This document shows, one piece after another, positions 5,278 through 41,493 of a stretch of DNA of 64,000 nucleotides. The notes beneath the pieces are model-generated. The model was given only the letters and a program-made list of their open reading frames with translations, was not told the DNA's origin and searched no databases. The stretch's first letter is position 1; every line of letters begins with the position of its first letter. A program made the position numbers and the translations under genes. The stretch comes from Adineta ricciae (taxonomy: Eukaryota; Rotifera; Eurotatoria; Adinetida; Adinetidae). The DNA lies in the NCBI GenBank assembly GCA_905250025.1, contig CAJNOJ010000049.1, positions 310,001-374,000 of the forward strand. The letters run 5' to 3'.

Positions 5278-6109
5278 GTCAATCGTAAGACTAGAAGCTC
5301 GTTCTTGTGTTTGTCGTTGAATCAAGTAAAGCTGAATCAGAATGTGCTCTGTATTTTATTAGTAATGTGATAGTTTATCGCCGTCATGTTCTTTTTTATT
5401 GTTCTTACCGAGTTGCGAAGAAAAAACGAGTTTGCTCATGTCGTTGTTTTTTATGATATTACTTTTTTTTTACCAATGATCTAGTAACATGTAGAACGGT
5501 ATTGACATTTTCTTCTTCAACAATAGTTCTAGCTAAACACGTGACAATTTGAGGTTAACAATTTGCAAAAACAACTCGAAATGAATACCAATTTTTAGTC
5601 AACGATATGAATTGAATTTTGAATTAATATGAGGATTTTGTAATTCTAGAATAATTACCGAATAGTATTATACGTCTATTCGATCATGATCTAGGAGAGT
5701 ATACGAAGTATTTGATTTAAAATTATTCGAAGAGGCGAAAAATGACGAAGGCTTTTTTCACGACTTTCTGTCGTTTATGGACATGATGGTTATAAGTCTG
5801 AGTCGAAATGTCAAGCTACATTTTCAATTGACATAAGAGAAATTAACAATTAGCTATTCGTAATAGAAGAATGATTATTTCGTTCTGTAATAATTGTATA
5901 AAAATGTCGTTCTGTTGCGAATGGAATAGATTACTGGTGGACAGTGCTCTTCGCTCTATGAAAGCGCAAAGATGTGAGAACAATAGACAAAGCGAAAATG
6001 TTTTCTTGATGCTCTTCACCGTCCACTATGTAACTGGGTATATTATAAACAGCTGCGTTTTCGATTTTCTGTTGAATCGAACTCGTTCAATCCTGTTTCA
6101 CTAGACGCC
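5278..6109. other. Conserved spacer between a LITAF gene and a coiled-coil gene
   Basis: No gene is supported. The right half (about 5880-6060) aligns with about 8500-8690: 'TTGTATAAA', a cluster around 'AAAGCGCAAAGATGTGA' and the Arg/Phe-rich pyrimidine stretch before the coiled-coil first exon recur in both. This is the promoter region of the coiled-coil unit, duplicated with it; the left part holds the upstream region of LITAF gene 3. Confidence 0.45.
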
Positions 6110-6490
6110 ATGTGCAAACTAAAATTCGTAAGTAATATTTTCCCGCCGATAGCACCGCTTCCCTTCCTTCTAAGTGTATTTAGATATTGTTCGCGTCTTT
6201 CCTGGATCGATCGTTCCGGCGACTGGATCCTTCTGAATCTGAGTCGGATCACAAGATTTTACAGAACTTAAATTAGCTACTAGAGCAGAAAAATAGTTAA
6301 ATACTAGCTTTGAAAGATCAAATTCATGTGTTAAAAGAAACAATTTCCAGTTTGAAGAAGTTAAATGAAGAATTGATTGGAAATCAACTATTTAATCCAA
6401 TGGACATTATACAAAACAACTTTTGAAAATGTTTACCTGTAGTGATGGTTATGCCAATTATGGCAATATACTGGTTGAAAACGTAATGAT
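6110..6490 (+). pseudogene. Dead copy of the coiled-coil tail-anchored gene
   Basis: It is a close relative of the gene at 8717-9114. The tiny first exon (ATGTGCAAACTAAAATTC, then GTAAGT) is still present at 6110-6127, and 6285-6480 encodes ALKD..LKETIS, then IIQNNF and the membrane segment. Three defects are visible: the Trp codon after QNNF is TGA, the region equivalent to the N-terminal half carries a TAA and deletions, and a GGATCC-type repeat fragment (6205-6250) sits in the intron region. The membrane segment remains open after the TGA. Confidence 0.8.
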
Positions 6491-6884
6491 ACTGTGTTAC
6501 TCGTAATGTGGTGTTGGACAAATGTATTAAATAATTTCACTGTTTATTTATTATTCTGATGTTATTCTTGCACTTATGAGAATCTTCTTGTAATTCTTCT
6601 GTCTAAAATACCTTGTATTAATTGTTTTTCTTCGACTTGGATGTAATCTTACCCGTAGAAATATTTTCTTTACTCAATAAAAGTATAGCGTTCGTCAAAT
6701 AGACGAGAATATGCGCGAAGAATGACTCTTATGGACATATTTAGAAATGATATTTCTTTGGAGTTCCTCAATTCTCAAGAACGAAACGTTGGAAGAAATT
6801 CGAATATCGGCTGTGCTAGTTTCATTTTAGTTTTATCTCATCTAATAGTACTAGTTACAGCTGTACTCAGGTCAATAAATTTGA

Positions 6885-7785: not shown

Positions 7786-8716
7786 GTCGATCGTAACACC
7801 CTCTACTTGCTCTCGTGTTTGTCGTTGAATAAAGTGAAGCTGAATCAGTGTGTGCCATGGATTTTATTAGTAATGTGATAGTTTATCACCGTCATGTTTT
7901 TTTTATCGTTCTTATCCGAGCTGCGAGAAAAAACGAGTTTGCTCATGTCTTTGTTTTTTTAAATAATATTGCTTTTTTGCAAATGATCTAGTGATATTAG
8001 AACAGTAAATACATTTTCTTCTCCAAAAAAGCTTCGTGCTAAGCACGTGACAAGTTATGCTCAACAATATGCAAGAACAAGTCAAGATGAGTACGAGTTT
8101 TCAGTCAATGTTATTAATTGAACTGTTTATTATAATATGAGAATTTCATAACTGCCGGATGATTACCGGATGTCATTGCACGTCTTTTCTCTCATATTCT
8201 AGGCGAGAAGACTAGATATTTGATACGGATTCATCTCACGGATCGAAGGACGATCAAGGCTTTCTCACAAGTTTTCAATACTTGTGAATATAATGGTGGT
8301 AAATCTGGATCAGAACTGAGTTCATTTCAGTGTTGATAACAAACGAAAAATAAGTTCAAACACACAATTTGATCAGGTGCTCGAAATTCGGTTCATGTGA
8401 TGGAACTTCTCCATAAATTCTAGATCAAGATTTGAAATGATATGAGATAAATCAGATATTGTCATCCGTAATAGATGGATGACTTTAGTCATTTCCAGTG
8501 ATTGTATAAATGTGCAGGTGTTCTCTGAATGAATTATTATAGAGGGCAGCGCAATTCGTTCTATTAAAACGCACAGATGTGAAAAGAAGAAACAAAGAGT
8601 AAATGTCTTCTTTATGATTTTCTTCGTCCGTCATGTTCACGCGTATATAGCCACATGTGCGTTTCACTTTTTCTTCAGATCACACTTATTTCATATAACT
8701 TGTCGCAATACGCACC

Positions 8717-9114
8717 ATGTGCAAACCACAATTCGTAAGTACTGTTTGTCGTTGTTGATAGCACTAGCATACTTAGTGTTTCCTTTTAGTGAATTACGTT
8801 CGTGTTTTTGGAAATAACGTTGTGAACATCATCCTTTATAGCGTGATATAATGGACTCCGATGAAAAAGTTTTAACAGATTTGAATCAACTTATCGAAGA
8901 AAAAAATGCCGAAACATTGGCTTTAAAAGATGAAATTAAAGCGTTAAAAGAAACAATTTCCATTACGGCAAAACGGTTGGAAGATATGGAGAAAACAATT
9001 GGGCAATTAAATCAAACGGCAAATCCAATAAAAATTATCCAAAACAACTTTTGGAAATGCGCCCCTTTGGTGATTACGCTAATCGTAGCAATATACTTAT
9101 TGAAAGCAAAGTGA
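8717..9114 (+). CDS. Coiled-coil tail-anchored protein
   Basis: Two exons, 8717-8734 and 8842-9114, predict 96 residues beginning MCKPQF; translation could alternatively begin at the ATG at 8851 (87 residues). I favour the two-exon model because the small first exon and GTAAGT donor are also conserved in the dead copy at 6110. The body is a charged coiled coil (LNQLIEEKNAETLALKDEIK and following) and the C-terminus is one hydrophobic helix (CAPLVITLIVAIYLL) with a short KAK tail: tail-anchored topology, cytosolic coiled coil. Family not recognised. It lies between LITAF genes 4 and 5, just before the 9281 insertion. Confidence 0.65.
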
Positions 9115-9280
9115 TGCTGTATTATTCGTGATACAAAGCTTCGGACATACACACTTCACAAAATTATTATTTGCATGTTATTCTCATATAGATCTTCTAT
9201 CAATGACAACTTTCTTGTAATTCTATTTGAGAAGTCTCGTATTGTTTTTTTCCTACTTGGATGTAATTACCTGTAGAAAT

Positions 9281-10377
9281 TCCCTCGACTGAAAGGAGGG
9301 TCATATTAAAAAAAAGTTTGTTTGTTTGTCTGTCTGTCTGTCTGTCTGTGTCAGGGTCAAAGGTCAAAAAAACATGTTTTTGAAAATGCTCAAAACTTCA
9401 TAAAACATCATTTCCGAGGAGTATTGAGACTGGATCTTGATGGAGGGGGTGGGTGAGGGTCGAGGGTCAAAGGTCAAAGGTCAAAAAAACATTTTTGCGA
9501 AAACGCTCAAACCTCAATAAAGGATCGTTTGGGAGGAGTCTTGGGGCTGGATGTTGATGGTGGAGTAAAGGACGGGATGAGAAGAACTGTGCCGGCGACA
9601 TCAAAGGTTAAAAACACTCCTCCCTTTTCCGAAATGCTTTAATTTTTAAAAAAAATCGTTTGAAATGGGTTCAACCATTGACCGAACAACGCTTGTATAT
9701 CCGAGAGATATGCCGTACTGCCTTAGCTCGAAATTTACTAAATCTCTAATTTGACTATATCAATAGTGTATTGAGGAGTGGTACGAGGACTAATTGGATG
9801 TTCTTTCGTGCGAAGGGAGAATCGTATAAGAAAAGATTGTTTGAATGGTGTGTGCTTGCATCATGATTCAAGACCAATATTAACAGAAACTTCACGAATA
9901 ACGTGGGGAGATAGCTGAGACTGATTGGTAGCTATCGTAGATTACAAAACTGACCAATCAGGTATCACGCGATGTAAGGCTGAGAAATTAGGTATGTGTC
10001 TAGGATGCATGAATCAGGCATTGAATATCTTAGATGCTTTTGTCGTATGGCCCTATAGATGAGAATCAGGGTGGATTTCCTCTTATAACGTCTAGTAAAC
10101 AAAAGACAAGCTCCAGCTGAAAGCTTTCTTGGTATAGATTTAGTTGAAGTAGTTAAATTGTGTGTGAAGTGTCGGAGAGGAAGGCGAGTGCCATCTGAGG
10201 CCGTGTATATGCTATAAACACTATCGAGCAGTCGGGAGTGGCGGACCGAAGGGACGCCGATGACCGACTGCGAGATCAGAGCATTGATACATCTTTTGAA
10301 AGGGTCTTATGACAAGAGTCGAATTGAAAGTGAATCAGTCGAGGGCTTAGCGAGTCGGCCTCGGCGAGCGTTACTTG
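9281..10377 (+). mobile_element. Helentron/HINE-like non-autonomous element, copy A
   Basis: The left end 'CCCTCGACTGAAAGGAGGG' is followed by a (GTCT)n tract (9328-9350) and repeated 'GGGTCAAAGGTCAAA' words. The right end is 'TCAGTCGAGGGC' then a stem-loop (GAGG..CCTC) and 'GCGAGCGTTACTTGT'. The left CCCTCGACTGA is the inverse of the right TCAGTCGAGGG, that is, subterminal inverted repeats. A GTCY-type microsatellite, subterminal inverted repeats, a 3' hairpin and insertion between T residues are the described hallmarks of Helentron-derived elements. No transposase is encoded. The ends match copy B at 16981-18033; the middle does not. A small open frame at 10260-10502 is not convincing. Confidence 0.6.
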
Positions 10378-10505
10378 TGATTAAGATCGAAGCAATATTT
10401 TTTCATGGTCTATTGCACATTTCTTCTCTTCGTACGAAACACGTGCACGATCGTATTTATTTAATTACATATTCAACTAGAAATTATAACAAACGCAAGT
10501 AAGAA

Positions 10506-13500
10506 ATGGATAAAATACGCGAAAAATTTTGTGAAGCACAACAACGAACATTTTCGACATCGGATCAACGATTACGAACTGAATCAGTTATTTTCGATAA
10601 TAAATTTTCTCAGTCATGTTTACAATCAGCAAAATTAGAATATATTGAAACCTATGATGATGATGTTTATATTCTTTGGTTAACAAATAACGAGAAAATG
10701 GAAACTGAATTATTAAATGATATAAAAATAAGAATATTTCATTCAAATAATGATCTTATTGATTTTATTAGTGAATTACAAACATCAAATATATTTGTAA
10801 TTATTGATTATGAGTTGGTATCAAATATTTTATCATTTTTGGATGATTTTTCCCAAATTTTATTTTTATATATTTTAAAATCCGAAGAAATTATTGATAC
10901 ATTAGTAATAACCGATTCGAAAAGATCAATTCGTCAAATATGTGATAATAAAACGAAACTTTTGAAATTCATTCTTGAAGATATTGAAATATGTACAAAA
11001 GATTTTATATGTTCAAGTATATTTGATATAACAATAAAGGAAGAATCAACCAATCAAACAAATAATCTTTCATTTATTTGGTATTATCTTTTATTAGAAA
11101 ATCTATTTCATTTAAATGTTTATAATCATCGAGCAAAAGAAGATTTAATCGAATATTCTCGTCAACAATATTTCAATAATCTAATGCGACAAAATCAAAT
11201 AACACAATTTGAAAATAAATATAAATCAGAAGATGCTATTCAATGGTATACATCTGATTCATTTATTTATCGTTTATTAAATAAAGCTTTACGAACACGT
11301 GATATTGATCAAATTTTTAAATTTCGACTTTTTATTATTGATTTTCAAAAACAACTTGAACAACATTATAACAAAGAAATAATAAACTCGACGGAAATTT
11401 TTTATCGTGGACAAGATATATCTTATTTCGAAATAATTAAATTAAAAAATAGTATACGAAAATATATTTCATGTAATACATATTTATCAGCATCACGTGA
11501 TAAAGCAATTGCTTTGATATATGCAAGTGGTTCCACATCAGTTTTATTTGAAATTGAAGTGAATTTTTCTACATGTATTCAAAATCAACGAGTTTATCCT
11601 GTATGTGTACAAGATAAAAGTTGTTTTCCCGATGAATATGAAGTAATCTTTCCAATTGGTTCAACTTTTTTAATAAATTCAGTTGAAAAAAAAGATAATC
11701 AATGGAACATTAAATTAAAATTAATAGATGATAATGATTATAATGAAATAGTTGATGTTATTCAAGCAATATATATGAAACAGATACCATCTAAAGTCCA
11801 ATTTGCTTATCTTATTATTTTATTAGGCGATTATGAAAAAGGTGAAAGATTTATTGAAATGTTAATTCAAGATTTACAATTAACTTCTGACAATAAAAAT
11901 TTAGCTTATGCTTATGATTTTATTGGTCAAAGTCAATATAAAAAAGGTTATTATCAAAATGCATTATGTTATTTTTTTAAATCATTAGATTATATTGAAG
12001 AAGATAATATATATTGTGTAAATATATATTGTAATCTTGCAACTTTATATTGTGATATGAAAGAATATAATATTTCTTTACAATATTTAGATCAAGCATT
12101 AAAATATAAACATCAAACAGATGGATTAAAACTGGCAGATTTATATGATATATTTGGTAATGTTTATAAAGAAATGGGTCATTTTGGTACAGCTTTGGAT
12201 TATTTCAATCAATCATTAGAAATTCGACGATCAAATAAATCTACTCATCGTAGTTTATATTGTACATATTTTTCTCTTGCATTACTTTATCAAGCAAAAT
12301 TTGATTATATTTTATCATGTAAGTTTTTTAAACATTCATTAAATATTGCATCGGAAGTTTTACCAAAAACTCATCCATTTTTTGTTATTTTGCATGCATA
12401 TATTGGTTTTATACTTTTTAAATGTAATGAGTCTTCATTAGCATTGATTCATATACGAAAAGCTTTAGATTTAATAGAAATTACTAAACAAAATTTGAAT
12501 CCTGTTATACATATATCTATTTGCAATACACTTGTAGACTTCTACATATTAGATCGTGATTTAAACAATGCATTTTACTATGCTAAGCAAGCCTTTACAA
12601 TCTATAATCAATTTAAAAACAGCATAATAAAAGCTGATTCTATTATAAGAATTATATATAGAAATATGGGATTAATTTATCAAAAAATTTGCGATTACAT
12701 TTCTGCATTAGATTTCTTTTTAAAAACGTTGAATTTTTCGATCACTGATAACGATCGAATAGAAGTATTCTACGATATCGGAATGGTTTATCTCGATCAA
12801 AATAATACAGAACAAGCATTGCATTATTTTAATCAATCACTTGATCTGATTTCGAACAATATTCCTTCAACTGAAAATGAAGATAAAGTTTGCTATATTT
12901 ATTATCATATGGCTACTATATATAAACGTGAAAATAATTTGGATAAATCTATATTTTTCATTAATAAAGCATTAGAATTACGATCACATCAAGGAAATAA
13001 AGACTATGGTTTTTTTATTCTTAATTGTTATACAAAATTAATATTCTTATGTCCTGACAAAATAAAAACATATATAGAAGATATTCTTAATATTTTAGAA
13101 AATTATGATTTAGGAACTAATTATAGATGGCTTTATTATATTATCATTGGAAATTATTACAGAGATCAAAATGATATTTCTAAGGCAATTTTTTATTATA
13201 AATTGTCTGTAGAAGATCAATTAATGTGTTTCCCACCATCTTATCACCAATTGATTGATACATATTTATATATTGGTGATGCATATAAGTCAGTAAGTAC
13301 AGATGTTTCAGATGAAGCATTATTTTATTATGAAAAATGTCGTGATGTTTATGTGAAATTATTAACAATGGAGAAAATACCGATCAATGATGTATCACAA
13401 ATATGTTCAAGTGAAGGATATATTTTAGAAAATATTAATCAAAGTTCACATATGATGGATACAATGGTTCATGTTTATTATAATATTGCAACATGTTATG

Positions 13501-15005
13501 TTCAAAAAGAAAATTATCAACAAGCTTTAAATCATCTTCAAAACATAGAAGAAAGATTTAATGAATACAAAGGACAAAAAGAACTAACGACACAAAACAT
13601 AATGTATTTTTCACTTGGTTCTATATACTTATCAATGCAATATCATAATGAAGCAATTATCTGTTGTGAAAAACATCTAACATTTCTATTAAATGATTCC
13701 AATCAATATGGTTATACCTTTGTCATAATTGCTCATGCTTATCAGCTTAAAAAAGAATATTTAATGTCAATATCAAAATGTAAAATTGCATTAACATTGT
13801 TACATAATTCAGAGTCTATTGACCATGAAAAACTAGCTCAATGCTATATTATAGTAGCAATATCTTATCAAAATTTAGAAAATAATAACTATGCTTTTAT
13901 TTATTCGAAAAATGTAATCAAACATCGTTTGTTATGTGATCCAATTGATTATGATTTGATCATATCAGCATATGTTCTTGGTACAGATTATCTATATTCT
14001 TCAAGACGATGGAATTGTAGGGAACCACTAAACTATATTCTATCAGCAATGAAATATAGTTCGTATGATTTAAAAGATAATTCATTAGGAGATCTTTATG
14101 AATCAATTGGTTTCTTTTACTTTTTAAATGGAATATATAATACTGCTCTGTATTATGACAATAAAGCACTTGAATATTCAAAAAAAGCTGATAATATTAT
14201 TAATATTTATGGTCGACAGTGGTTATGTTTTGAATTAAATGGTCAAATAGATCAAGCATATAATATTATAAAAAAGAAAATAAATTATCAATTCAATTCG
14301 AAGACTAATTGTTTTATCAATATTTCAAACTCATACATTGACATGGGTATGACTTGTCATCGACTCGGAAATTATAAATTAGCGTTAAAATGTTATCGAT
14401 TAGCGTTCTACATTCTTCATATATATCAAAATAATAAAACTCATGAAAACTATAGTCGTATTTATACTAATATTGGTAGAATTTATCTCGAATATGGTCA
14501 AGTAAATGATGCATTGAAATTTTGTTCAAAAGCGCGAGATATTTATTTCTCGAATAAAGATAATACATTTTTCCCTATTCTTATTTATATTAATTTAGGT
14601 TTGATTGAATGTAAACTTAAAAACTATTATGAATCATTAGATTATTTTGGAAAAGCATGGGAGTATCTATTTAATGAAAATCTTCATTATCATCTCTTTT
14701 ATCGAATTTTATACAATTATATTGGGTTTGTTTATTTTAAACTTGGACAAATACAGATAGCTATTAAATACTATTTAAAATCTTTATCATTATTCAATAA
14801 TATTAAAAACCATTCAGATCTTGCGGTAATTTATCAAAATATTGGTTCGATTTATGAGCAAGAGAAAAAAACATATCCAATTGCATTAAAATTCTATAAA
14901 CGTGCTTTAGAAGTTGTTCCAAACAATAAACATCCGAATTATATTTTCTATAAAAGTATGATTGTTACATTAGAAAAAAAACTGAAAAGAAAAATGAGTA
15001 TTTAA
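10506..15005 (+). CDS. ADP-ribosyltransferase-TPR protein
   Basis: Single uninterrupted frame of 1499 residues. Residues about 1-230 are an unrecognised leader. Residues about 240-410 are an arginine-type mono-ADP-ribosyltransferase fold with the R-S-E signature: Arg301 in FYRGQ, Ser328/Ser330 in YLSASRD, and Glu377-Tyr-Glu379 in DEYEVIFP, the ExE form that transfers ADP-ribose from NAD to arginine. Residues about 430-1490 are a long series of TPR helix pairs (recurring 'YNIA..Y.....Y..AL.YY.KAL'), a protein-docking solenoid. No signal peptide or membrane segment is seen. Neighbouring genes have introns; this one has none and is distinctly more AT-rich, as expected of a retrocopy or acquired gene. 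Such ART-TPR proteins are, to my knowledge, abundant in bdelloids. Substrate unknown; the domain layout suggests an intracellular effector aimed by the TPRs. Confidence 0.85.
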   Translation: MDKIREKFCEAQQRTFSTSDQRLRTESVIFDNKFSQSCLQSAKLEYIETYDDDVYILWLTNNEKMETELLNDIKIRIFHSNNDLIDFISELQTSNIFVIIDYELVSNILSFLDDFSQILFLYILKSEEIIDTLVITDSKRSIRQICDNKTKLLKFILEDIEICTKDFICSSIFDITIKEESTNQTNNLSFIWYYLLLENLFHLNVYNHRAKEDLIEYSRQQYFNNLMRQNQITQFENKYKSEDAIQWYTSDSFIYRLLNKALRTRDIDQIFKFRLFIIDFQKQLEQHYNKEIINSTEIFYRGQDISYFEIIKLKNSIRKYISCNTYLSASRDKAIALIYASGSTSVLFEIEVNFSTCIQNQRVYPVCVQDKSCFPDEYEVIFPIGSTFLINSVEKKDNQWNIKLKLIDDNDYNEIVDVIQAIYMKQIPSKVQFAYLIILLGDYEKGERFIEMLIQDLQLTSDNKNLAYAYDFIGQSQYKKGYYQNALCYFFKSLDYIEEDNIYCVNIYCNLATLYCDMKEYNISLQYLDQALKYKHQTDGLKLADLYDIFGNVYKEMGHFGTALDYFNQSLEIRRSNKSTHRSLYCTYFSLALLYQAKFDYILSCKFFKHSLNIASEVLPKTHPFFVILHAYIGFILFKCNESSLALIHIRKALDLIEITKQNLNPVIHISICNTLVDFYILDRDLNNAFYYAKQAFTIYNQFKNSIIKADSIIRIIYRNMGLIYQKICDYISALDFFLKTLNFSITDNDRIEVFYDIGMVYLDQNNTEQALHYFNQSLDLISNNIPSTENEDKVCYIYYHMATIYKRENNLDKSIFFINKALELRSHQGNKDYGFFILNCYTKLIFLCPDKIKTYIEDILNILENYDLGTNYRWLYYIIIGNYYRDQNDISKAIFYYKLSVEDQLMCFPPSYHQLIDTYLYIGDAYKSVSTDVSDEALFYYEKCRDVYVKLLTMEKIPINDVSQICSSEGYILENINQSSHMMDTMVHVYYNIATCYVQKENYQQALNHLQNIEERFNEYKGQKELTTQNIMYFSLGSIYLSMQYHNEAIICCEKHLTFLLNDSNQYGYTFVIIAHAYQLKKEYLMSISKCKIALTLLHNSESIDHEKLAQCYIIVAISYQNLENNNYAFIYSKNVIKHRLLCDPIDYDLIISAYVLGTDYLYSSRRWNCREPLNYILSAMKYSSYDLKDNSLGDLYESIGFFYFLNGIYNTALYYDNKALEYSKKADNIINIYGRQWLCFELNGQIDQAYNIIKKKINYQFNSKTNCFINISNSYIDMGMTCHRLGNYKLALKCYRLAFYILHIYQNNKTHENYSRIYTNIGRIYLEYGQVNDALKFCSKARDIYFSNKDNTFFPILIYINLGLIECKLKNYYESLDYFGKAWEYLFNENLHYHLFYRILYNYIGFVYFKLGQIQIAIKYYLKSLSLFNNIKNHSDLAVIYQNIGSIYEQEKKTYPIALKFYKRALEVVPNNKHPNYIFYKSMIVTLEKKLKRKMSI

Positions 15006-15948
15006 ATCAATTTTTATAATATAATCGGGTTAAAAACTTCTAAAACCTTAATTATTATGTATCTCATACAAAGTTTGTTCATTCGCAGATACTCATCCGA
15101 CAATTCAAACGAGAAAGAACGGAATCTTCGAGAATCAGTTGAGCGTTTTTGGAATTCCAAAGTTGTAGACAATATATTAAATTTGGTCAAACGGAGCGAA
15201 CTTTCTCAAATTTTCCAGAATTTTCTAAATAGTTTCTTAGGCTGCTTAAAATTCTCTCCGTTGAATGAATCGTATTGAATATTAAAGTTGCAAATACTGT
15301 CAATTTCTATTAAAGATATATTCAGAGTTAATCGAATAGGATTATTCAATCGAACTAAAATCGAGTTGAACTGATCAATCATTGTTGTAAGATTAGCTGA
15401 TACGTAGTCCGACTGCACTAGAATATACCAGTTTTATATGTAATACAAAACCGTCTATAAGACTCGAATTGAAGGAGATATAAGAAAGTATCGAAGAGGA
15501 TAATTAGGGTGTGAGGATTAGATTAACTATCATGACCGGTTTCGATTCAATTACGAATCTCATTAGATGACTTAATAACTTAAAAATGATTAAAATCAAT
15601 AAATTTCAGCTTAAATAAGCTAAAATTCATTAATTTCAATCAAATTCGAGCAAAATACACTGTTTGAAGCCAAATTTAAGTAAATTTAGCTTAAAATTGT
15701 GTGTATACATAGAATAAGGATAGTTTGGGATGAAGGGCAGTAGGAATTATGATATATTGGAAGAAGGATTTATTTAATTATGTATACTCTTGAATTGTGA
15801 ATAAATAGATAGTATCACTGTGGATATTTATAGAGGGAATAGGAAAAGTGAAGTTTTAGTTCTACTAGGCAATAATATATGGGGGAAAATTTTAATCTAA
15901 TGAGTTATCCGAGTTAGTGTTGAGAATGGTGTAGTTTAAGCAGAGGTA
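15006..15948. other. AT-rich intergenic stretch inside the inserted block
   Basis: A 73-codon plus-strand open frame (15057-15278) lies here but has no family resemblance and no clear gene context. The stretch around 15590-15710 is an A/T simple-sequence field built on 'AGCTTAAAT/AATTTCA' words. Nothing else is recognised. Confidence 0.35.
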
Positions 15949-16130
15949 TTCCCTTTTCTGAAAGAAAGGGTTATTCAATGATTAATTCATGGGCTTGAAA
16001 TGCTAAAAGTTTGTATGTCTGTCTGTCTGTTTGTCCATATTATCGAATCAGCAAACAGCATTTCGTAAGTCAATGAATTTGTATGGAAACTTAACCGGAA
16101 GTTGGTGACCGAAGGGTTTTCGGGGTCAAG
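15949..16130 (+). repeat. Related but diverged 5' end of the HINE-like element
   Basis: 'TTCCCTTTTCTGAAAGAAAGGG' at 15949-15970 and a (GTCT)n-type tract at 16014-16033 ('TGTATGTCTGTCTGTCTGTT') mirror the start of copies A and B, including the spacing to the microsatellite. The following sequence differs and no matching 3' end was found before copy B begins at 16981, so this is either a diverged subfamily or a fragment. Confidence 0.45.
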
Positions 16131-16980
16131 GAACACGAATCTGATGTCAGTTTTTAAAGTCATATCGAAGTGTTTTCATGAGAGCTTCGACGGCCATTTG
16201 GCGAACGAGAGAAAGCAGTATCCTCGGATGTGAGGTCTGTTATCTTCACATGAACAGGAAGAATGGCTTAAACACTTATTGTGATATTGTGAAACGGAAG
16301 AAGAATAGTTCTAAATTATTGTTTTCTGTGTTGCTCCTTCTGGCTTGACTTTGTGCAAAAGATTTGGTTGTGGATTACGAACTGTTATATTGTGAGAAAT
16401 TCATTGATTTAGTAGTAGAATAAATGAAAGAGTCATTCTGAACAGGATTTGATGCCACTTATGGAAGTAATAGGTTTATCAAAAGCAAATAGAATACCGC
16501 TTTAACGTAGTTCAGTAAAAGAAATGTTTATAATTATAAATAAACATTTATTTAATAAAGTCGTAAACATTTCTAAAACAAGTCATGAAAATCGAAATAA
16601 ATACATCTAATGCCAAACGAACAAATGTCCGATTAATATTAATTGAAACTGAGAAAGACTTCGTTGATTAGTCGAAAGTTAAGTGCTTGGTTTCCTACAG
16701 ATATTACGAAAGAAGAATCAATATGATATGGTCAAAAACTGAGTGAAAATAAGTTCTCAAAATAAAGAGAATTATTTGCAAAAACAGCACTGTCGTTTTT
16801 AAGTAATTTCAATATTTTCAGTCAGAAATCAAGCTAAATGAATAAATTGAACATTTTGATATGTTTTAGTCTTGTCGTATCATTGACTGGAGGATCGAGT
16901 TTGCTTTTGGAATATGCTTTTATTTCAGTTCACTTATAAAATTATTAGGATTTTCAGTGTTTTATCGAATACCAATTATT

Positions 16981-18033
16981 CCCTTGACTGAAAGGAGGGT
17001 CATACGAAAAAAAATAGTTTGTATGTTTGTCTGTTTGTGTCAGGGTCAGAGGTCAAAGGTCGTAAAAACATTTTCTTGAAAAACGCTCAAAACTTCATAA
17101 AACATGGTTTTTGGAGGGGTGTTGAGGTTAGATCTTGGTCGAGGGGAGGTGAGGGTCGGGGTCAAAGGTCGAAGAAACCTTTTTTTCGAAAATGCTCACA
17201 ACTTCATGAAACATCGTTTGGGAGGGATCCTGAGGCTCGAGGTTGGCTGGAGGAGGGTTGAAGGGGCAGGGACGTGACATAAATGAAGAAAACATTTCAT
17301 CCGCGACTGAGAGGTGGGCTACATAGAAGAGTTGATTACGAAAAAGTAGAAACACACTCGGTTGACTGTCGCATACCAAAGGCCAGTAATCCAAAAATAC
17401 ATTTATTCACAAGTTACATACTGGAGAGCAATCTTAAATGCTGAGCTGCGATATATTGAAAGTTATTGTAGGCCTTTAAGCCTTTTAATTAAGGAGATAG
17501 CCTTAAATGTTCGGACGCGGATAATTTTATCTATGAGATGTTGATGGAATGCTAATTAATTTTCGATACTTTTTAGTAGCACACGAGTAATTATATGATA
17601 GATAGGGACAGCTTTGGAGCGCCGACGAACAACGAGCTGCAGCTGGTAATCTAGCCAGTTACCAAAGTATCAATAATCCGACACGTTCGAATGCGAAATT
17701 TATAGTCTCATTTGGTTTTACCGAAATTATCTTTCTTTTAGAAAAAGGAGGACATGTTTAAAAGTGCAAATCCATAATAGCCATTTATAGCGAACTTCTG
17801 CTTCCTGTGAAGAGTGATTGTCAGTCAGCAATATAGAATAATTAAAAGCAGCACAAGTAGTCCTTTGACTCTTGTGAAGACTGTGAGGCGAATGAAGATC
17901 AGTCTCTGGGGACTCTTTCAAAGGTTATACTTCTGTCTTTTTTTTTGCATAAAATGCGCATAAGACTATTTTATTTTCAGTCAGTGGTTCAGTCGAGGGC
18001 ACAGCGAGTCTGCCTCGACGAGCGTTACTAGTT
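16981..18033 (+). mobile_element. Helentron/HINE-like non-autonomous element, copy B
   Basis: It starts 'CCCTTGACTGAAAGGAGGG', has a TTTGTCTGTTTG tract, then the shared 'GTCAGGGTCAGAGGTCAAAGG' type words and 'AAACGCTCAAAACTTCATAA', all in the order of copy A over about 330 bp. It ends with 'TTCAGTCGAGGGC', the stem TCGAGG/CCTCGA around a 14-base loop, and 'GCGAGCGTTACTAG'. The middle 500 bp is unlike copy A. Length (about 1.05 kb) and orientation match copy A. Several short open frames inside are not convincing. Confidence 0.6.
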
Positions 18034-18573
18034 TTGTTTATTCAATAAAAATAAAATATTCGTCAAATGAACGGAAATAGGAGAGAATACTATGCTTATA
18101 AACATACGTACGCGGTTGGTATTTCTTCAGGGTTTCGCAATTGGAAAGAGGGAAGTGTTGGAAGAAATTCTGACATCAATGAGACTTACTGAAGTTCGAA
18201 TTTATCTTATGTAATTATCGTTTTTAGCATTCGATCAAAAATAACTCAACTAAAAGTGAATATTGAACAATTCAGATGAGATCGGATAGTTATTTAGTTA
18301 TCTGGAGAAACACGGCGCGGCATCAACAGGAACAGTGAAATATTGTTGACATGGTGAACTAGAGTATAGAAATCTTTTGAAAAATAGTGCTAATGTGTTG
18401 TCCAACGTGTATCTTCATCGATGGCATGAAGTAAAGTTTTAGTTATAAATCTTTCCCTTTATTATGTTTCTTTCCAACGGTGTCATCCACTTTGATCATG
18501 TATTTCAGCATTTGACAAACATAAATTAAGAAATTACAACACATGCGTTTTACTTTTCGGTATCTCTGTTGAT

Positions 18574-19053
18574 CTAAATAACATTTCGTCGACCAACTAG
18601 ACTTCGACACGCAGGACACGTGTGTACAGCATCTTGACAGTCTGGCACACAAAATGGGATCAGACAACAACCAAAAACACCACCAAAAATACAGATTAGC
18701 AGTGCAATGAGCCAAGTGCCACCACCAGTTTCATACTGAACAACAGTCACAATCTGCTGTTGACATCTTGGACATTGTACCGCAACCGGAGTACGGCCTA
18801 ATAGTGCAGTGCTCAAGATCGGTTGGAAAACTGTCGCTGGAGCATACATTGGTACTGCAGGTGGCGGCGGTGCAGCTAAAATCAATAGAAACAAAAACAA
18901 ATCATCAATCGTTCGTATTATAAGGGTCTTACCGAAATAGGTGGGTTGTATGGGTGGCTGTGGTGGCATTTGTTGTTGATATCCTCCACTAGCTTTGAGT
19001 TCGTCATGAGCTGTGTAGGGAGGTGGATGCATTGGATCAGTCGCGTTGGCCAT
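18574..19053 (-). CDS. LITAF-domain membrane protein 5
   Basis: Two exons, 18933-19053 and 18574-18875, 140 residues. It is nearly the same protein as LITAF gene 3 and differs from it mainly by keeping the MYAPAT linker and by FCVPDCQ. Domain order: PPPYTAHDE (PPxY), Pro/Gln linker, CPRC, hydrophobic stretch GGTWLIALLICIFGGVFG, PFC, HTCPAC. The N-terminal exon and the 57-bp intron match gene 3, whereas part of exon 2 (for example 'CCACCACCAGTTTCATACTGAACAACAGTCACAATCTG') matches gene 4, a mosaic expected from gene conversion. It is the right flank of the 8.7 kb insertion. Confidence 0.88.
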   Translation of the reverse strand: MANATDPMHPPPYTAHDELKASGGYQQQMPPQPPIQPTYFGKTLIIRTIDDLFLFLLILAAPPPPAVPMYAPATVFQPILSTALLGRTPVAVQCPRCQQQIVTVVQYETGGGTWLIALLICIFGGVFGCCLIPFCVPDCQDAVHTCPACRSLVGRRNVI

Positions 19054-20078
19054 GTCAATCGTAAGACTAGAAGTTCGTTCTTGTGTTTGTCGTTGAATCA
19101 AGTAAAGCTGAATCAGAATGTGCTCTGTATTTTATTAGTAATGCGATAGTTTATCGCCGTCATGTTCTTTTTTATCGTTCTTATCGAGTTGCGAAGAAAA
19201 AACGAGTTTACTCATGTCGTTGTTTTTTATGATATTACTTACTTTTTTTTACCAATTATCTAGTGGCGTTAAGAATAGTGAAGAATTTTATCTCGCTACT
19301 TTGATATAGGAATGAAACGAAAAAACATTCAAGACTAGAAATACAATTTAATAAGTGAGCATCTGACAATTCGTCAACAATTCTTACCGAAATATGAAAA
19401 ATAAAATCCAAGTTAAATATGTCATTGTACCATTTTATTCTTCAACGTGGGCTTGTAGTATTTCCGTTAGAATATATCCGATAAATATGTGAATTTTTAA
19501 TCTATGAAAAAATCTGAATTTTCACCCATATGAGCATTTTATACCCATAGGACGATTACCGAAAAGAATCCTATGTCTTGTTAATATGTGCATATGTTGA
19601 TTGAGTCCTATGAAAATATATCAAGTATTGGTATTTATTGAAATACAAGGACATCTCACGGGTAGATAGATGATCCAAACTTTCTTTACTAGACTTCACT
19701 ACTTGTGAATATGATGGTGATAAATGTTGACCGGTGTCTCCATTCATTTTGAATGCTTGTAACACAAGAGAGAGAATGAAGTTCGAAGACAATTTGATTT
19801 CGACACTTGAAAATTTCTCCGCATAGTCAAACGTTTGCTATAGATTAGAGAGTAACATTTTGATTTCACATGAGAGAAATATCGTGCTTAGATTTTTCGT
19901 TCTTCAACTTTAGCGATTATCGTCATCGAATGTGTCACATTGAAAGAAGTGCTTTTGCTTGAAAGATTACCTTATCATTTGTTTTACTTATTGATAAGGA
20001 TGTAATACTGAAGTCTGTTTCGGCACAAATTTCTTTTAGCACACTTTTTTTCAGACGCGTCTGTTCTCTGCATTGTCG
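19054..20078. other. Intergenic; upstream regions of two genes
   Basis: No gene supported; a 73-codon minus-strand open frame (19571-19792) has no resemblance to anything I know. The left part contains 'TTTTATTAGTAATG(C/T)GATAGTTTATCGCCGTCATG', shared almost exactly with the upstream regions of LITAF genes 3 and 4 (5357-5395 and 7862-7895), so the duplicated promoter extends at least that far. A pyrimidine tract ending TTTTTTTCAG at 20045-20054 lies 24 bp before the next start codon. Confidence 0.4.
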
Positions 20079-32189: not shown

Positions 32190-32190
32190 N
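32190..32190. other. Undetermined base (n) at a sequence junction
   Basis: The only n in the window. Sequence to its right is the inverted copy of the exon of the gene at 29726-30492; sequence to its left is unrelated. This is what a contig join or a polished-over gap looks like. Confidence 0.8.
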
Positions 32191-39624: not shown

Positions 39625-40746
39625 ATGTCATCATCAGGAAGTTCAACGACCAAATCAGTAAGTTTAACAAAGAAAGACTTCAGATAGATTTGTAATTTTG
39701 AATTATAGAATGTCCTTCTATCAAGTATTGTAACATCAGCATTAAGTCAATTCAATTGGGCTGAATTGGAACAGAAACAACCAAAGCCTGCAAAACCTGT
39801 TCATGTCAAACGACCTATGAATGCCTTTATGGTTTGGGCTCAAACTGCTCGGAAAGCATTGACTGCAAATTTGTCTATTGTTAACAACGCACAACTAAGC
39901 AAAACGTTGGGCAAAATGTGGAAGTAAGTTCATTAAGGGATATGAATAGCTTTGATCTCATATGTTTGATTTTTAGGGAATTACCACAAGAAGAACGCCA
40001 ATTGTTTGTTGAAGAAGCTGAACGTATTCGTGAACAGCATAAACGTGATCATCCAGAATATCGGTATCAACCAAAACGAAAAGCTAAACGTATGTTAATC
40101 AACTAAGTTTTCTCCGACTTTATTAATCTTTCTATTTAAAGACGCTCGTTATCATCCATATTCTACTCCTAATACAAGCAAATCTTCTGCATCACCATCA
40201 TCATCATCGGTGAACGACACAAGTGTCCAAAGTGATCATCATCCACCTGCGGCTTCGTCTCCATGTTCATCATCGTTCGACGAACCGTCAGGAAATTCAT
40301 CTGTATTTCTTCCATCTTATCCACCACAACAGATCTATTCCCACAAATATCAACATTCTCACGAAGATCTCCTCGACAACGATGAAAACGCTTGTACTTC
40401 AAAAGAAAACTTTTCAGCAACATCTTATTACGTGCAAACACCGATTGATGCCGATCAACAATACGAAACGAACACAACTGGACACTATCCGACCGAAAAT
40501 TTTGCGTATCCAAGTAAGTACTTTTGAATCAGATTGTAGCGGTTGATTTGACATCTCGATTTAGATATGTACAATGCGTATTATCCATCGTTTTCTCATC
40601 ATTCTGCAGTGCCCGAATACAATTCAAACGGTACCCTCTACAATGCAAACTACGGTGTACTTTCGTACGACGCATCATATATGGCACATCCGTCGAACAC
40701 AATGAATTTCAATTATCTGAATGCTCATTATTCGTCTGGTCAATAG
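39625..40746 (+). CDS. SoxE: SoxE-like HMG-box transcription factor
   Basis: Five exons: 39625-39657, 39709-39923, 39977-40089, 40142-40513 and 40565-40746; 304 residues. The HMG box (about residues 35-112) starts [14 protein letters not shown] and continues [13 protein letters not shown], then [23 protein letters not shown]; this combination is the SoxE (Sox8/9/10) signature. An intron splits the box inside KMWK, and another follows the box. The C-terminus is Ser/Tyr/His/Asn-rich with repeated Tyr-Asn-Ala, a transactivation type. SoxE factors control neural, glial and germline fates in animals. The region between residues 120 and 300 shows no other domain. Confidence 0.88.
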
Positions 40747-40827
40747 ATGTTTCTAAAGATTGTTTCTTGTGTTATTTTTTTATATATATAAATTTGGTGT
40801 ATGAAATAAATTATGTAAATCTAAGAG

Positions 40828-41493
40828 TTAAAGGTCTTTTTGTTTTTCAGCAAGTCCAACGTCGATATTATCTTGGGGCGCTTTTTCAGGTTTTCGAGAT
40901 AATTCTGGATGAGGTTTGTCGGATGCTAATCGGCCTGCGTCGTTGAATTGTTGAGCAAGTACGAGTTGAAATTTGTCATCGAGTTTCGATCGAAGTGGTT
41001 CAAGAATATCGTTTTCTTCTTCCTTCAAATGATGCACTAGAAGGAAAGGTGAATGAAAGTTCATAGAATGACAGAGTTAATGATGTGTACTTAGTTTATC
41101 AGCTGATTTATGTATTTGTTTCCATGTCACTGTTGACTGTTCAGCTAATTTTTTCAATTCCTTTTCAAGTTGACGATGCTCTTTAATACCGTGTTCGATC
41201 AAGTGATGTCCACCTTTTTGTTCATCTTTTAAATATTTTTCAACCTTGGGATAGAACGCAATTTCTTCCTTATGACCATGAAGTGCAATATAAGCAATCC
41301 ATTGACGAGCACGTGAATCAAGTTCCTTTGTATTTTCGATTGTTTTCAATTGTTCATATTCGTCACGCATGTATTGATGTTCAGAAAAAATCAAATCAAT
41401 GATTCCAACGGATGACGTGGAAGTAACTGAACTTCCATACGGTCGACAAAAAATCAATAGCGAAGCAACAGGAAAACGTCGCAAAAAAAGCAT
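40828..41493 (-). CDS. Hemerythrin (HHE)-domain protein, possibly mitochondrial
   Basis: Two exons, 41091-41493 and 40828-41036, 203 residues. The N-terminus (MLFLRRFPVASLLIFCRPYG) has basic and hydrophobic character typical of a mitochondrial targeting sequence. The four-helix HHE domain carries likely iron ligands: His in IFSEHQYMRDE, HGHKEEIAFYP (HxxxE), HHLIEHGIKEHRQLE and, across the intron, MHHLKEEENDILEPL (HxxxE). Such proteins bind a di-iron centre and act in O2/NO/H2O2 sensing or iron homeostasis. The C-terminal 40 residues are Pro/Asp/Lys-rich and disordered. The 3' end lies 82 bp from the end of the SoxE-like gene, convergent. Confidence 0.82.

Follow-up and report, generated by a model that had tools for sequence, protein, structure and literature searches.

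HINE/DINE-1 elements insert at a TT target and carry subterminal inverted repeats (subTIRs), a palindrome nested at the 5′ end, a second palindrome at the 3′ end and a microsatellite (PMC4067079). Helentrons have also been credited with functional genes, probably captured ones, and end bypass or composite transposition has been proposed for duplications adjoining DINE-1 (PMC4067079). In Helraiser experiments, an intact element took along DNA from beyond its 3′ end in ~11.7% of events (PMC4778049). Among bdelloid rotifers, a host nonribosomal peptide synthetase (NRPS) gene framed by Penelope repeats is described from Adineta vaga (PMC3846280), and rolling circles average 0.30% of bdelloid genomes in a survey whose main text, as far as the consulted part of it extends, does not use the word Helitron (PMC7943196). 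Here we describe a locus of Adineta ricciae at which an intact open reading frame (ORF) with ADP-ribosyltransferase (ART) and tetratricopeptide repeat (TPR) domains lies between two Helentron-like elements, A and B, within a tandem array of LITAF genes. The stretch analysed, hereafter the window, comprises 64,000 nucleotides (C49:310001-374000, C49 being contig CAJNOJ010000049.1 of an assembly of 130.46 Mb in 1,033 contigs), and coordinates given without a contig or locus refer to it.

The two elements and the gene lie in a composite inserted unit of 8,751 bp on the forward strand (9281-18031), which reaches from the 5′ end of A to the 3′ end of B and is delimited by the break in flank homology, its junctions reading T|TC and CTAG|T. 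A BLAST comparison of the window with stretches of itself aligned the left flank (8431-9280) with the tandem LITAF paralogue at 5822-6662 (64%) and the right flank (18032-18170) with the same paralogue at 6664-6801 (70%). This homology stops at base 9280, corresponding to 6662, and restarts at 18032, corresponding to 6664, which are the exact outer termini of A and B, and one paralogue base, 6663, separates the two half-alignments. With the flanks joined and the block left out, the alignment to the paralogue runs unbroken through the junction; the neighbouring LITAF unit thereby holds a paralogous empty site (6640-6690) in the pre-insertion state. The sequence of the site is GTAGAAAT / TTTTGTTTATTC; immediately to the right of A stands TGATTAAGATCG, and AATACCAATTAT precedes B. 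The paralogue is matched neither by the right flank of A nor by the left flank of B, and because these inner flanks are unlike it, A alone or B alone fails to explain the site. A T stands at all four junctions of A and B, and its presence at both inner junctions is the expectation for two older, independent insertions. No target-site duplication was seen at the outer flanks ACCTGTAGAAAT and TTTTGTTTATTC, and a composite cut-and-paste (DDE) transposon was rejected on that ground.

The LITAF copies further right show 88-91% identity in the same BLAST comparison, and the one copy checked against Pfam matched zf-LITAF-like at 92.5 bits. With 18034-19400 as query, a search found the three LITAF copies of the window and, beyond these, a single match (203 bp, 76%). 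The block itself is free of N, the sole N of the window being at 32190. An earlier note on this DNA had claimed that the spacer near 6.65 kb matches both flanks of the block and that the block begins and ends with copies of one element in the same orientation. Both claims hold, the first by the half-alignments and the joined flanks, the second at the level of an element family; the limits that it gave, 9281 to 18033, are right at the start, but the unit stops at 18031, with CTAG. The presence of a gene-bearing block at an interrupted LITAF spacer is confirmed.

We consider it probable that the block is one composite rolling-circle insertion, from the 5′ end of A to the 3′ end of B, into a single TT site. 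The donor locus would have held an intronless ART-TPR gene with an A-type Helentron 128 bp upstream and a B-type element of the same orientation downstream. A Rep/helicase supplied in trans would nick at the 5′ end of A and displace a strand, and transfer would pass A's own 3′ terminator and halt where B ends, at a 3′ terminator of the same kind. The resulting single strand, beginning with A's TC and finishing with B's CTAG, would then be joined into the TT between two LITAF units without duplication of the target. The locus follows the plan of Helitron-type 3′-transduction in having one 5′ end, a captured flank, an alternative 3′ end and a single target site. A rolling-circle event that starts at A and stops at B needs no crossover and, if the proposal is right, is younger than A's own insertion. 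Beyond the sequence record, we infer the donor arrangement, the bypass of a terminator, the supply of Rep in trans and the continued use of the gene.

Both framing elements are complete, non-autonomous and Helentron/HINE-like, and both lie on the forward strand. A (9281-10377; 1,097 bp) belongs to a CTTG subfamily and has two full-length relatives at 95%, while B (16980-18031; 1,052 bp) belongs to a CTAG subfamily, its closest full-length relatives being at 91-92%. A begins TCCCTCGACTGAAAGGAGGG, and its 5′ subTIR CCCTCGACTG (9282-9291, forward) lies inside a short palindrome (CCCTC..GAGGG), after which comes a GTTT/GTCT microsatellite. It finishes CAGTCGAGGG-CTTA-GCGAGTCGGCCTCGGCGAGCGTTACTTG, so that its 3′ end (10336-10377, forward) consists of the subTIR CAGTCGAGGG and a palindromic tail ending CTTG, a terminator that is apparently intact. 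B is built on the same plan except for its CTAG terminus; its 3′ subTIR and palindromic tail (17990-18031, forward) form the terminator that we propose the composite used. The CCCTCGACTG and CAGTCGAGGG subTIRs are present in the window copies and, with some changes, in most listed copies. A and B share ~67% identity overall and are well conserved, as judged by eye, only in the first ~290 and last ~50 bp. The words of the putative 3′ palindrome are kept across copies, and its recognition depends on them and not on folding energy, since neither predicted 3′ fold is strong (A: z -0.43, not significant; B: z -1.43); the 5′ end of A, folded as DNA, is also weak (z -1.15). Relative to the majority sequence, A diverges at 13 of 949 columns (1.37%; 8 private) among 8 chosen relatives and B at 37 of 932 columns (3.97%; 14 private) among 26 relatives.

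By their sequence features, namely the T|TC...CT(A/T)G|T target, the subTIRs and the GTCT microsatellite, A and B are assigned to a Helentron/DINE-1-like family. Canonical Helitrons have ends without inverted repeats, and we rejected this class for A and B, which show a T|T target and subTIRs rather than an A/T insertion. The canonical elements insert between A and T (PMC4067079). We also rejected the idea that A has its CTTG through damage to a CTAG terminator and that this led to read-through: in A's subfamily CTTG is the normal terminus, and the terminator of A is therefore taken as undamaged.

Subfamily identity runs through both elements. In 150-bp steps, A is matched best by A-type (CTTG) copies from position 101 onward, and B by B-type (CTAG or CTAT) copies over its whole length. 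Positions 101-250 of A are matched by A-type copies at up to 95% and by the best listed B-type copy at 76%, and the same positions of B by B-type copies at 94%. Across the fetched loci, body type agrees with the end in 42/42 other complete elements: the 16 other A-bodies all end in -TTG (CTTG in 14), and the 26 other B-bodies end in CTAG, CTAT or CCAG (CTAG in 23). Since subfamily identity is unmixed elsewhere, any crossover within A or B must lie in the first ~130 bp or the last ~50 bp.

Across the genome, 247 right ends (at most 3 mismatches) and 342 left ends (at most 2 mismatches) of the family were found; reversed-pattern controls in the same genome gave no right or left ends. One hundred places are listed for each kind of end, and distinct ends were counted from the fetched loci with the window's own copies included. 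Left ends show T|TC at 57 of 61 distinct sites, a T preceding the end at 59 of them, and right ends are followed by T at 49 of 51 distinct sites, the terminus being CTAG at 27 and CTTG at 17. Insertion at TT without target-site duplication is seen at two empty sites, that of the LITAF paralogue and that of a decayed gene copy on contigs C225 and C771 described below. Right-end pairs within 10 kb of each other number three on the same strand, the window's included, and two on opposite strands, with 0.76 expected in all (100 ends listed of 247). Two same-strand right-end pairs ~5 kb apart (C343:8997-14899 and C465:27574-33587) are possible substrates or products of composite transposition.

The gene (10506-15005, forward strand; ~4.5 kb) starts 128 bp from the 3′ end of A and is a single uninterrupted ORF of 1,499 amino acids (aa). 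Pfam reports ART (PF01129) at residues 235-410 with 30.3 bits (cut-off 22.3) and several TPR families whose best stretches extend up to residue 1470. Its lack of introns might suggest retroposition, which we set aside as not needed, since long single frames are usual in the ART-TPR family: among the ART-TPR-like places scored (31 of 939 first-look candidates), the main match has no internal stop in 29, and 27 (all but C49, C624, C771 and C225) have open frames of at least 825 aa.

Among the candidates scored, the gene is most similar to a decayed copy of 91% identity, split over the loci L034 (C225:160143-163676) and L032 (C771:21171-24335). This relic has a stop codon, its left side is cut by unrelated sequence, and it is interrupted by a B-type element, the right end of which is on C225 and the left end on C771. 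The element sits at AA/TT, as read from its flanking letters, and the ORF of the window provides the uninterrupted state. From the sequence, C225 and C771 look like one locus broken inside the B-type element; an N stands where the relic sequence changes and is read as a misjoin point. As the relic locus appears broken in this way, misjoins in such ~1 kb repeats call for caution. Between the gene and the relic, 458 codons were compared; those with a single change are nonsynonymous in 61 cases and synonymous in 33, giving a ratio of ~0.5-0.6, and there are also 1 stop and 2 indel bases. Such a ratio would be expected if one copy was constrained and the other decayed: constraint has acted on one lineage or both, though it is not dated to the time after insertion and need not have followed the move.

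The points that weigh against a single composite insertion are best taken together with the explanations that they would favour. Homologous recombination, in which a Helentron resident at the TT site crossed over with a circle or segment holding the gene and another Helentron, fits the outer breaks at element ends and the same-orientation copies, requires no terminator bypass and makes the missing donor less troublesome. The first ~130 bp of A may leave room for such a crossover, which would be traceless there: this part of A is as close to B-type as to A-type copies (best 1.000 against 0.982 for A-type; means 0.928 and 0.902), the best hit of A 1-150 is a B-type copy, and the two types are matched equally well by the first 130 bp of B (0.937 and 0.938). 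Nevertheless, the exchange would have had to fall within ~130 bp that include a microsatellite or within the final ~50 bp, which are at ~86%, and no mosaic resident occurs among the 42 other complete elements, which are part of ~250-340 copies; we judge this course of events unlikely. The earlier note had proposed that the gene was brought in either by recombination through a resident element or as cargo of a composite element. Carriage as cargo between two copies is supported, and the composite of the note fits when its element, which the note left without a name, is taken as a rolling-circle one of Helentron type, whereas recombination with a resident is disfavoured by subfamilies that are unmixed beyond A's first ~130 bp. 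Improbable to a similar degree is an assembly artefact, whereby reads of a Helentron-flanked ART-TPR gene were misjoined into a Helentron at the LITAF site. A misjoin at the block may have occurred, both of its ends being ~1 kb repeats, and the C225/C771 relic, apparently split inside a B-type element with an N at the misjoin, offers a precedent. The block, however, is N-free, misjoins usually give subfamily mosaics, of which none is seen beyond A's first ~130 bp, and an element A-like on its left and B-like on its right would still be required at the site. That A and B are independent insertions, with the gene segment arriving by an unrelated route, is very improbable. The different subfamilies and unequal divergence from the majority would agree with separate events, but the paralogue halves abut exactly the outer ends, the inner flanks are unmatched, and two breakpoints on element termini would then be a coincidence.

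The remaining difficulties concern the composite insertion itself. Copying should leave a donor, which is expected though not strictly required, and among the 40 of 268 candidates scored nothing above 91% to the cargo was found, the best match being the partial one to the relic, nor any match besides the window for the stretch 16162-16977. The donor may have been lost, may be unassembled or collapsed, may have been excised or may reside in another genome. The bypass of a terminator has to be assumed, as that of A is undamaged, the predicted hairpins are weak, and the composite was found once, with no sign of further movement. There is a slim chance that the composite travelled as a mobile gene cassette and originated in a genome or haplotype outside the assembly, for instance a rolling-circle intermediate passed between individuals, an origin that agrees with the missing donor.

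The earlier note also took the block as a concrete vehicle for the spread of ART-TPR genes in bdelloids, and this the data do not show: framing by elements is known for the window copy alone among the 31 scored places, flanks having been read beside the genes on C624, C225 and C771 and the other places judged from listed ends. The family may be much larger, since the 31 places are drawn from 939 candidates. A right end lies within 1 kb at 3 of the 31 places, against 0.11 expected under uniform placement (100 ends listed of 247). Of the 30 places other than the window copy, 2 have an end no more than 1 kb away (P 0.0055), and 3 have one at up to 10 kb (P 0.016) or, equally, up to 20 kb (P 0.077), values that depend on a lenient uniform null, on the same 100 listed ends and on counting C225 and C771 as two places. 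One of the two near hits is the element inserted in the C225/C771 relic, which is interrupted and not framed, and neither hit is known as framed. The case for Helentrons as spreaders of the ART-TPR family at large is weak. At C624:3669-8011, an intact ART-TPR-like ORF of 974 aa (47% amino-acid identity over residues 1-886) has a complete B-type element of the same orientation 429 bp upstream, and no element was present in the 1.7 kb read on its downstream side; this is an arrangement from which capture could start, not a capture.

Two further features lie between the gene and B. One is a dispersed repeat of unknown kind (15506-15944, no strand assigned) with partial matches of 69-87% to the loci L037, L041, L042 and L048. 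The other is the decayed 5′ end of a second Helentron-like family (15950-16160, forward strand), with T|TCCCTTTTCTGAAAGAAAGGG, a TCTG microsatellite and matches of 73-83% at 12 loci. We rejected a full element starting at 15950, as the family match is limited to the first ~210 bp and the right end has only a weak CTTG|T candidate at 16871. Elsewhere, copies with TCCCTTTTCTGAAAGAAAGGG ends share interiors in shifted registers.

Helitron Rep domains were matched by 37 stretches of the genome, certain of which belong together as parts of a single gene. Contig C68 has, in order on one strand, a left end (33401), a Rep frame (40512-41153; PF14214, 119.5 bits) and a right end (46504), the pairing of these ends resting on the listed ends, between which further ends may exist. 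A run of N adjoins the left end, and the right end has the subTIR and palindromic tail with CTTG|T. A Helentron proper, as against Helitron2, is moved by a Rep/helicase fused to an endonuclease; for the C68 Rep, the one found between matching ends, no endonuclease on the same contig is among the matches listed. At C359:29270-33454, Rep and endonuclease matches both report an open frame of 2,070 aa, a candidate autonomous Helentron. The partner of the A/B family may be a Helentron proper or Helitron2-like. Another candidate partner is found at C676:5547-11646, where a left end of the A/B family is followed 5.6 kb on, on the same strand, by the best Rep match (a 1,536-aa open frame). Beside the relic, L034:1-530 resembles a Pif1/Helitron helicase by eye, and three Rep matches lie within 14 kb on the same contig.

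Helitron-like elements are known for shuffling gene fragments, and the locus described here would extend this to an entire 1,499-aa ORF between two subfamilies that acted as one element. Its signature, an A-type 5′ end and a B-type 3′ end at a TT target, can be used to search for further cases. The event would represent a DNA-based route of gene copying in animals for which a Penelope-mediated case is on record, and if the cassette did come from outside, Helentron composites would be a vehicle for the acquisition of whole genes from elsewhere. Titles and abstract openings in the bdelloid, Helitron, Helentron and DINE-1 literature, with most subscription journals outside our reach, yielded no comparable case, and there was no literature match for rotifer ADP-ribosyltransferase together with tetratricopeptide.

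Among known systems, the bacterial IS91/ISCR elements carry out a one-ended rolling-circle transfer that picks up a neighbouring gene. They resemble the block in this one-ended pick-up and differ from it in being prokaryotic and of another element lineage. Closer in structure are the HINE/DINE-1 (INE-1) elements, which like A and B have 10-12 bp subTIRs, set back from the terminus by 1 nt on the 5′ side and by ~32 nt on the 3′ side, and form more than one subfamily (PMC4067079). The host pieces captured by them are fragments, such as frame-shifted pieces of histone genes, in contrast to the intact ORF of the window, and the part of that account consulted here gives no case of an intact host ORF that lies between two subfamilies and has an empty site (PMC4067079). 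The Penelope-framed NRPS gene shares with the block a host gene of an expanded family, repeats of one transposon family around it and a new place in a bdelloid genome; there, however, the vehicle is a retroelement with target-site duplications and the introns are kept, whereas the window would owe its block to a DNA rolling-circle element that left no duplication (PMC3846280). In Helraiser 3′-transduction, as proposed for the block, transfer starts at the 5′ end, bypasses the 3′ end, stops at a downstream terminator and moves the flank to a new site (PMC4778049). Unlike Helraiser, the window has a terminator from a second element of another subfamily and a TT target, and the evidence is evolutionary rather than experimental (PMC4778049). 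Capture past the 3′ end is thus already known for Helitrons and proposed for Helentrons; what is added here is an intact ORF between two subfamilies, with the empty site alongside.

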